Shown piece after piece: positions 50,066 to 51,927 of a stretch of 51,927 bases of DNA. The notes under the pieces were generated by a model. It saw only the letters and a list, made by a program, of their open reading frames with translations. It was not told the DNA's origin and searched no databases. The position numbers and the translations under genes were made by a program. Position 1 is the stretch's first letter. Every line of letters begins with the position of its first letter. The stretch comes from Psychromonas sp. B3M02 (GTDB taxonomy: Bacteria; Pseudomonadota; Gammaproteobacteria; Enterobacterales; Psychromonadaceae). The DNA lies in NCBI RefSeq assembly GCF_003318165.1, contig NZ_QOCB01000104.1, positions 1-51,927 on the forward strand. Direction: 5' to 3'.

Positions 50066-50436
<371 letters not shown>

Positions 50437-50442
50437 CCATTC

Positions 50443-50480
50443 AGCCCCTAGTTTATGAAAATAAACTAGGGGCTTTCTCG
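50443..50480 (+). terminator. rnpB terminator
   Basis: A 14-bp perfect stem (50443-50456 with 50461-50474) with a GAAA tetraloop, followed by TTTCTCGTTT. It lies 8 bp after the mature 3' end of the RNase P RNA. Confidence 0.9.
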
Positions 50481-50500
50481 TTTCTGGAGCAGGGTGGAAA

Positions 50501-50528
50501 GGTACAAGGTACAAGGTACAAGGTACAA
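50501..50528. repeat. 7-bp tandem repeat (GGTACAA)4
   Basis: Four perfect GGTACAA copies at 50501-50528, followed by diverged copies (GAGGACAA, AGTACAAGGTAA). It sits right after the rnpB terminator and marks the start of the AT-rich accessory stretch. Such short arrays are prone to copy-number change. Confidence 0.85.
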
Positions 50529-50736
50529 GAGGACAAAGTACAAGGTAATGTTACTGGGCTAGATAAAGAGTTAAGTAATAAACTCACTTTGGTTTGGTGC
50601 TTGAGACGGTTTTTTATACAGAGAAGTCAATATTCCATATTACCGTTATTAATTTGGACTTTTTCCATCCATTCTCATGATGAAGATTTGACAAAATAAC
50701 TTAATTGATTGATTTTATGATTGGTAAAGGTATTGT

Positions 50737-50762
50737 TATGTTAATTTTAGCAAATTAACATA
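50737..50762. repeat. Palindromic hairpin upstream of the last gene
   Basis: An 11-bp perfect inverted repeat, TATGTTAATTT (50737-50747) and AAATTAACATA (50752-50762), with loop TAGC. A second small repeat, ATTTCC-ACC-GGAAAT, spans 50769-50783. ATTCCATAT (50632-50640) is complemented by ATATGGAAT (50782-50790). Together these occupy most of the 354-bp non-coding stretch 50475-50828, which has no ORF. They could be operator, attachment or terminator structures; the sequence does not decide. Confidence 0.55.
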
Positions 50763-50808
50763 TTCTGTATTTCCACCGGAAATATGGAATTTTTCGGTTT
50801 ACTAAACT

Positions 50809-50816
50809 GTTATAGC
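50809..50816 (+). other. Candidate recombination core site at left of cassette
   Basis: GTTATAGC is the exact reverse complement of GCTATAAC at 51893-51900. In an integron cassette, the left core (GTT...) and the first core of its own attC are complementary, and the coding start follows closely. Here ATG 50829 lies 12 bp after this core. The site departs from the strict GTTRRRY consensus at one base. Confidence 0.45.
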
Positions 50817-50828
50817 TACGGAGTAAAT

Positions 50829-51893
50829 ATGGCACTTCCGTTCCCCAGAAAAGATATTACAAAGCTATTAATCTCTACTCCATCTCATTTTGTTGGGCAC
50901 TATGAAAATGAAGTTTTTAGAGCTGTAGTGGCCAATGAAAATTTAGGAGTGAAATCGGCGAGAATAGATGAAAGGACATACAAGCAGTACATAGAGGTGA
51001 CAGTAGAAACTCCAGAGTATAAAAATGATACTGTAGTCATTCCTGATTATAGCCAAATTGGAGAGAACTTTTGTATTGCAATGTCAGTACTTTTTGGAAA
51101 AGCATTTGATTCACATGGGCTTTTGCAACAGCATGGCTGGGCTTACCTCCCAGATCTCAATTCAAATCACAAGATACACAACAAAAACCTTACTATAAAC
51201 AGTTCTGAACCTAGAGTTGATTATGAAATAAAATTAGATCTTGAGAATATAAAATTAATAGAAAATGTATTGTTTCAACATGATGAGGATACTGTTGATG
51301 CCCAGTCGACATTTTGGTATGCAGGGCGTTTCTATCTTCAATCTCTTCGTATAGTTGAAGAAAATCCAGAACTTGCATTTCTCAGCTTAATCACTGCTGG
51401 TGAAATATTAGCTTCATATTTCAAATACAGCGTTGATGAGCTCCTGGATAGTAATAGTAAAGAACTACTAGAGAGGTTGAAAAGTCTAGGTGAGGACGGC
51501 GAGCAACTTCATAAGCAAGTTAGTAAAAAATTAATGGGTATTTCAGAAGCATTCTGTAAATTTTTAATCGATTGTTTGGATGATGAATTTTTTGAGAGAA
51601 CTGAGTCTAAACATGATTTTTCAAAGTTAACTAAATCTGATATCAAACAACGATTGAAAGCTGCTTATAATTTACGAAGTAAATATGTGCACGCAGGAAA
51701 AACTCCTTCAGGCTGGATGTCAGTTGATTATTTGAATAACAATGAAGAAGTACACCACGGAAACCCCGTGTTGGAAGATAAAGAGATGAAAAAAGCTATT
51801 AAGCGTTCCCCTACATTTATTGGTATGGAAAGGATTATTAGATATTCACTACTTAAATTTGTAATGAAAACAAATGTGATCCCCGATATATAG
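50829..51893 (+). CDS. Unrecognised protein with C-terminal HEPN-like (Apea-type) signature
   Basis: A 354-residue soluble protein with no signal peptide or membrane segment. I do not recognise the N-terminal half. The C-terminal half is helical and contains LRSKYVHAG, where R283-x4-H288 matches the R-x4-6-H motif of HEPN domains, best resembling the Apea-like subgroup. HEPN proteins are often RNases in toxin-antitoxin and antiphage systems, so a defence role is possible but unproven. ATG 50829 has GGAG 5 bp upstream; the ATG at 50784 has no such site. Codon use is AT-rich relative to neighbours. The gene lies between cassette-like core sites, with no partner gene visible. Confidence 0.55.
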   Translation: MALPFPRKDITKLLISTPSHFVGHYENEVFRAVVANENLGVKSARIDERTYKQYIEVTVETPEYKNDTVVIPDYSQIGENFCIAMSVLFGKAFDSHGLLQQHGWAYLPDLNSNHKIHNKNLTINSSEPRVDYEIKLDLENIKLIENVLFQHDEDTVDAQSTFWYAGRFYLQSLRIVEENPELAFLSLITAGEILASYFKYSVDELLDSNSKELLERLKSLGEDGEQLHKQVSKKLMGISEAFCKFLIDCLDDEFFERTESKHDFSKLTKSDIKQRLKAAYNLRSKYVHAGKTPSGWMSVDYLNNNEEVHHGNPVLEDKEMKKAIKRSPTFIGMERIIRYSLLKFVMKTNVIPDI

Positions 51894-51927
51894 CTATAAC
51901 AAGGCACTTAAACGGAGCTTGATGCTC
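51893..51927 (+). other. Possible attC site, left half, cut by the window end
   Basis: Directly at the stop codon, GCTATAAC (51893-51900) is followed by AAGGCACTTAAACGG and then GAGC-TTGAT-GCTC, a 4-bp hairpin. Integron attC sites start with a TAAC-AA core and an L'' box such as AAGAGGGA, and fold around a central hairpin. The resemblance to vibrio-type TATAACAA repeats is clear, but only the left half is visible. Its right half, ending GTTATAGC, should lie just past the window. Confidence 0.5.

Follow-up and report, generated by a model that had tools for sequence, protein, structure and literature searches.

A HEPN-like gene cassette at an attI-like site without an integrase gene beside rnpB, and related orphan sites across Psychromonas

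The window analysed here, a stretch of 51,927 bases that constitutes an entire contig (C97) of Psychromonas sp. B3M02, closes with a single HEPN-like gene to the right of rnpB that is framed by two complementary 8-mers. The arrangement raises the question whether this gene is a mobile integron cassette and, if so, into what kind of site it was placed and by which integrase, as a relic of an integrase gene (intI) alone was found at this locus and the intact intI of the genome lies on a different contig (C108).

The HEPN-like gene and its boundaries

The gene is an open reading frame of 354 aa on the plus strand (50829..51893). An R' box, GTTATAGC (50809-50816, plus strand), with an inferred crossover at G^TT, lies 12 bp 5' of the ATG at 50829, and similarity to the closest relative stops here. 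Its exact complement, the R'' box GCTATAAC (51893-51900, plus strand), begins with a G that is also the last base of the TAG stop codon, and is directly followed by the L'' element AAGGCACTTAAACGG (51901-51915, plus strand) and the start of an apical hairpin, GAGC-TTGAT-GCTC (51915-51927, plus strand), with which the contig ends. R'', L'' and hairpin start make up the left half of the cassette's attC (51893..51927, plus strand), the remainder being cut off by the contig end. A complementary R'/R'' pair flanking a single frame is one of the features by which the gene was assigned to the integron gene cassettes, and the two 8-mers, the attC half and the small hairpin were all confirmed where the original prediction had placed them.

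A search allowing up to 3 mismatches to the 20-mer TATAACAAGGCACTTAAACG revealed a single occurrence in the window (0.01 expected) and six in the genome, including the copy in the HEPN cassette, while control matches amounted to 0. Three of the other five occurrences, on contigs C130, C77 and C100, were judged by eye to be attC left halves. An Rfam search of the window reported RNase P alone. Two hairpin-based attC finders were applied, of which one reported no true attC across nine loci and the other found the C130 site and some of the C108 sites and missed the attC before the Vibrio copy described below as well as those on C77 and C32. As these finders proved unreliable, attC sites were called by inspection and pattern matches, on which all statements on attC rest.

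Comparison with other genomes revealed the same gene with the same ends between unrelated flanks in two further genera. In an uncultured Vibrio (L021), an 88%-identical gene directly follows what reads by eye as a complete attC, and the local alignment covers window positions 50809 to 51903, i.e. the cassette ends. On a replicon of Pseudoalteromonas sp. CuT4-3 (L053), a 73%-identical gene lies between GTTATAGC and GCTATAACAAG; here the local alignment spans window positions 50801 to 51906, and the reading frame extends beyond its R'' box. No complete attC was recognised 3' of either copy, and a search of 40 relatives did not find the gene outside its own genome. The R'/R'' pair, the Vibrio copy behind an attC, the Pseudoalteromonas copy with its boundary 8-mers and the other attC sites of the genome bear out the proposal that the gene is mobile, and its nature as an integron gene cassette is near certain.

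Regarding the encoded protein, the Rx4H sequence RSKYVH (R283SKYVH288) is invariant in all four aligned homologue sequences, and the HEPN-like label is based on Rx4-6H, which we take to be the HEPN motif. Two plasmid homologues carry the database name HEPN domain-containing, and the Vibrio homologue matched Pfam HEPN_Apea with 16.8 bits, under the cut-off of 24.4, a match that was absent for the other two homologues. The window protein itself gave no HEPN match in Pfam or NCBIfam, and 0 families among the PADLOC models. Motif, two homologue names and one sub-threshold Pfam match together suggest a HEPN-like identity; a role in phage defence is a guess, as no HEPN profile rose above its cut-off and no defence model matched. 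AlphaFold prediction from a two-row alignment yielded a mean pLDDT of 33.7. A more distant homologue (27.5% identity) was found on an Exiguobacterium plasmid, and searches of phages and viral contigs found no relatives.

The attI beside rnpB

The left chromosomal neighbour of the integron locus is rnpB, encoding class A RNase P RNA (50066..50438, plus strand; Rfam RF00010, 339.7 bits), which is followed by a terminator-like stem at 50443-50474. According to the original prediction, intI is absent from the 354 bp on the gene's left side. This holds for a gene, but an intI relic of about 50 bp is present at 50540..50589 on the minus strand, with 84% identity over 50 nt to the interior of intI in the related genome G006 (E 9e-10). 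Short tandem AAGGTAC repeats (50498-50547), expanded in G018, were observed between the rnpB terminator and this relic. In G018, the closest relative found (94% over rsmI-rnpB), a longer relic matches IntI residues about 101-128. Alignments place the approximate junction of the intI deletion at 50596..50620 (unstranded), common to contig C40 of G018 and in part to contig C15 of G020. Since the window species and G018 have the same deletion junction, at which the 5' part of intI was removed, the gene was lost before the two split.

The adjacent 183 bp (50631..50813, plus strand) matched our attI model R1 with 127.5 bits (E 7.6e-37; the site is part of the training set) and are 72-77% identical to intI-linked attI regions in four related genomes. 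Comparison with the spacers between intI and cassette gave 77% over 182 nt for G006 (E 2e-36), 74% for G020, 73% for G007 and 72% for G012, whose intI has one stop, and all four alignments (E 2e-36 to 6e-12) end at window position 50812-50814. The core, an inverted repeat ATTCTGTATTTCC/GGAAATATGGAAT with the crossover GTT, lies at 50762..50811 (plus strand), and the cassette is joined exactly at this GTT. Judged by this homology, the docking site of the HEPN cassette is an attI whose intI was deleted and left a relic, hereafter an orphan attI, and the proposal of an integrase-less cluster is supported.

A possible cassette promoter Pc (TTGATT, 16 bp, TATTGT; 50709..50736, plus strand) is predicted within the attI. 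Its TTGATT part is nearly constant across sites and its second part variable, and a formal promoter consensus scan of the window did not report it. The core inverted repeat with a T run (50762-50790) scored as terminator-like; it may act on cassette transcription or represent an integrase-binding palindrome.

The alignment of window and G018 downstream of rnpB ends at 50812. At the same crossover, G018 carries a different frame of 273 aa, which has its own boundary pair, GTTACATG / CATGTAAC. To the right of the G018 array lie genes for a permease, an AraC-type protein and an anti-sigma/sigma pair, all named by eye. By synteny (85% over 3.9 kb), the right side of the locus in the own genome is contig C32, which in reversed orientation starts, as judged by eye, within an attC and continues with an OMP-decarboxylase-family cassette (271 aa; PF00215, 98.2 bits), the attC of this cassette, and the permease with its neighbours. 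The attC seen at the locus therefore comprise one half on C97 and, placed by synteny, one partial and one full site on C32. The expectation that the array continues to the right is supported indirectly: given the order on C32 and the synteny with G018, the array would span rnpB to the permease, with its middle unassembled and the two contigs joined by synteny alone. The end of the OMP-decarboxylase cassette together with an unusual attC left arm was observed on both C32 (L110) and C93 (L123), so that the genome may hold two copies of this cassette, a possible cause of the contig breaks.

Orphan attI sites across the genus and their first cassettes

A direct search with the attI region gave matches in 14 of 41 genomes, all belonging to one genus. 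Model R1, a 185-position sequence model built from 29 sites of this same genus and applied at a cut-off of E <= 0.001 with filters that lose some weak matches, matched 21 of the 24 genus genomes and 0 of the 17 genomes outside. The total of 217 matches is a rough figure, as the model stems from the same genus, partial matches are included and some opposite-strand echoes are possible; weak matches are uncertain for the first of these reasons. Twelve matches fall in the own genome (G000), 28 in G020, 27 in G009, 22 each in G019 and G012, and 6, three of them partial, in the single-contig genome G006. As a positive control, the model recovered attI beside uninterrupted intI, e.g. on C108 of the own genome and in G006, and it gave no match in G004, G017 and G022, though G017 and G022 carry intI. 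The attI query found no match in plasmids. The integrases of the genus belong to the TIGR02249 family, which scored above the cut-off 29 times in the same 24 genomes (1-2 copies in each of 21 genomes, some broken).

A closer inspection covered 73 profile matches, located in 61 fetched stretches that had been selected mainly for strong matches. Eighteen were excluded for a missing attI end or GTT or a short right flank, five of which are, by position, opposite-strand echoes of counted sites. At 42 of the remaining 55 sites (41/54 under an earlier crossover choice), tblastn with a cleaned set of 14 IntI rows (E <= 0.01) found no intI match within 2.5 kb upstream. The exact R'' 8-mer was present within 2.5 kb downstream at 28/55 sites (24/54 under the earlier choice), with a permuted mean of 3.6 and a maximum of 10 in 1000 permutations; for the orphans alone, the count was 19/42 (permuted mean 2.8, maximum 8). 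As the exact R'' 8-mer is absent at 27/55 sites, and the GTT or the attI end is lost at some, many sites may be decayed. The fetched stretches included 11 of the 12 matches in the own genome, with eight readable crossovers (C108, C126, C130, C131, C24, C69, C90, C97), five of them with an exact 8-mer pair under the earlier crossover choice.

Orthologous integrase-less sites were compared in six groups, which comprise 15 sites and 12 pairs, with upstream flanks 79-95% identical over 1.3-2.4 kb and attI 76-97% identical. An alignment that starts, in both members, in the first 250 bp after the crossover was found in 0/12 pairs, and the 15 first frames, which were picked mechanically, showed no similarity to one another; farther to the right, 8/12 pairs have some common sequence, such as repeats. 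An intI relic is common to both members of the rnpB pair and of the G009 C4 / G019 pair; the remaining groups have colinear flanks with no intI match. Cassette turnover at orphan sites is well supported by these comparisons, the simplest reading being that an integrase acting in trans exchanged the cassettes when intI had already been lost. Loss of a leading cassette, not a new insertion, could account for the differences in single pairs; given the exact boundaries left behind, such loss would also need site-specific recombination.

Several further observations were made at these sites. On C24 of the own genome, 3,443 bp compare with 60 bp in G009 and 31 bp in G002, in a sample with G018 outside; the left edge of the extra stretch lies just after a terminator-like hairpin (by eye). 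Many sites lose similarity near -181, and a fixed 181-bp transposing unit was considered and rejected; functional conservation explains this loss equally well, as the left repeat of attI begins there. Frames at the orphan attI of C69 (L145 1550-2248) and C126 (L122 2132-3568) match the candidate defence models PDC-S31 and PDC-M36A. Stretches L220 (G009 C29, 33881-37708) and L211 (G019 C1, 1683059-1688771) contain tandem rows of an attI-like element plus gene with roughly 430-bp repeated elements. Each holds one group II intron match (RF00029), by eye similar sequence recurs between the genes where attC would be expected, and two neighbouring genes of L220 look near-identical by eye. A TwoAYGGAY RNA (RF01731) lies ~40-55 bp upstream of orthologous orphan attI in the same two stretches (L220 9762-9897 in G009; L211 12814-12975 in G019). 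Finally, an attI-like sequence (GTCGTAGACTAAATTGTTATAGC; L053 7900-8001) was recognised by eye ahead of the HEPN cassette of Pseudoalteromonas; the ~500 bp before it gave no convincing intI match, and the region is possibly another orphan attI, in a second genus.

Integrase supply, competing explanations and known systems

The own genome holds one intI above the cut-off, which is uninterrupted and located on C108. Its cis attI is 95% identical to the attI of C126, which keeps a 17-aa intI relic, and 88% identical to that of C130, which has no intI gene. The C97 attI belongs to another subclass, about 60% identical to the C108 attI and 77% to that of G006; as it is closer to the latter, the integrase acting at C97 may be one that was lost. 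The IntI proteins of G006 and C108 are 71% identical. In G018, no uninterrupted intI above the cut-off was found, so that cassette exchange there must be past or draw on another source.

We regard it as probable that the HEPN-like gene is the first cassette at an intact attI whose intI was deleted before the window species split from its closest relative, and that this attI is one of many orphan attI, most likely served in trans. The attI homology, the missing intI, the exact cassette boundaries and the different cassettes at orthologous sites can be read directly from the compared sequences. On this explanation, orphan attI would be scattered over the chromosomes of the genus, each offering a separate first position for a cassette, and IntI from elsewhere (in the own genome, C108) or from a recent ancestor would insert and remove cassettes through attI x attC recombination at G^TT; from the sequence comparisons we infer this trans action as well as a present-day activity of the sites. 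Somewhat more tentatively, we favour the wider view of a distributed integron, in which many orphan docks, each with its own first cassette and perhaps its own promoter, would depend on one or two integrases acting in trans.

The contig end shows half of the attC and no more, which leaves some room for the idea that chance complementary 8-mers flank an ordinary chromosomal gene. However, 0 of the 48 window frames (>=100 aa) combine GTTNNNNN within 60 bp 5' with its complement around the stop (the script misses the HEPN frame itself because its first in-frame ATG is at 50784), and similarity to Vibrio and to G018 ends at these same boundaries. We consider chance refuted by this comparative evidence and next to impossible. 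Scarcely more credible is an attG-like insertion into a chance GTT beside rnpB. The original prediction had allowed for such a secondary site; the missing intI in cis would agree with it, and cassettes are known to enter attG sites according to the accessible text of PMC12901181. Yet an attG site would be unrelated to attI, whereas homology to intI-adjacent attI sites covers the 183 bp to the left of the junction, with an intI relic next to them. This homology refutes insertion at a secondary site.

Of greater weight, though still unlikely in our view, is the reading that the orphan attI are dead remnants, now inert, of once complete integrons copied within the genome, which would have taken up their cassettes when they still had intI in cis. 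Relics of intI as found at C97 and G018 C40, on C126 (17 aa), in G005 (21 aa), on G009 C4 (32 aa), in G019 (38 aa) and on G003 C48 (about 100 aa) are what such decay would leave, as are sites without GTT or attI end, and duplicated integrons with intI pseudogenes are known from the available part of PMC2426708. Against this stands that the first cassette differs in 12/12 orthologous pairs, even though the relic is shared (rnpB and G009/G019 pairs) or the flank is colinear and free of intI. The orphan attI is also more conserved than its upstream flank in 8/12 pairs, although less so in four, two of them clearly.

The layout resembles several known systems in part. With sedentary chromosomal integrons of the Vibrio type it shares attI, attC cassettes and a TIGR02249 IntI, but the textbook layout of one platform with attI beside intI (accessible text of PMC9024848 and PMC11023631) differs from up to 28 attI-like matches per genome, most examined sites being without intI. 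CALINs, i.e. attC clusters without integrase that include conserved Xanthomonas loci and are said, in the text available from PMC12444791, to be mobilisable in trans by IntI, are similar in that cassette arrays lie away from intI at conserved chromosomal loci; here, however, the arrays examined have a recognisable attI at their start, and the cassettes differ between orthologous sites. As IntegronFinder, according to the available text of PMC9024848, does not detect attI outside class 1, attI ahead of CALINs could have gone unseen. Cassettes inserted outside the intI platform are also a feature of attG sites, which the accessible part of PMC12901181 describes as divergent from classical att sites, whereas the sites reported here are attI homologues over 183 bp. 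The same part of that paper describes delta-attI-type cassettes of class 1/2, in which an attI copy downstream of a gene can move with it; these pieces are mostly 14-18 nt long (244 nt in one type) and confined to one array, in contrast to the near-full attI scattered over chromosomes here. Duplicated integrons with intI pseudogenes share intragenomic copies and decayed intI with our sites, but the survey in PMC2426708, as far as its available text goes, looked for intI and does not take up attI persistence or cassette turnover. Among the matches listed from the integron literature, covering titles and the starts of abstracts with subscription papers outside, no dispersed integrase-less attI was described.

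In the usual teaching, an integron has a single integrase, a single attI and a single array, of which the first cassettes alone are expressed. If the distributed layout is true, many cassettes would simultaneously hold a first position, and hence be expressed, without queuing in one array, which would alter the view of how cassettes are stored and expressed and would provide one origin for integrase-less attC clusters (CALINs). As IntegronFinder misses attI other than those of class 1 (available text of PMC9024848), other genera could harbour this layout unnoticed, and it can be searched for there by modelling each genus's own attI. Within the genus, the orthologous orphan sites constitute natural pairs with which cassette turnover may be measured.
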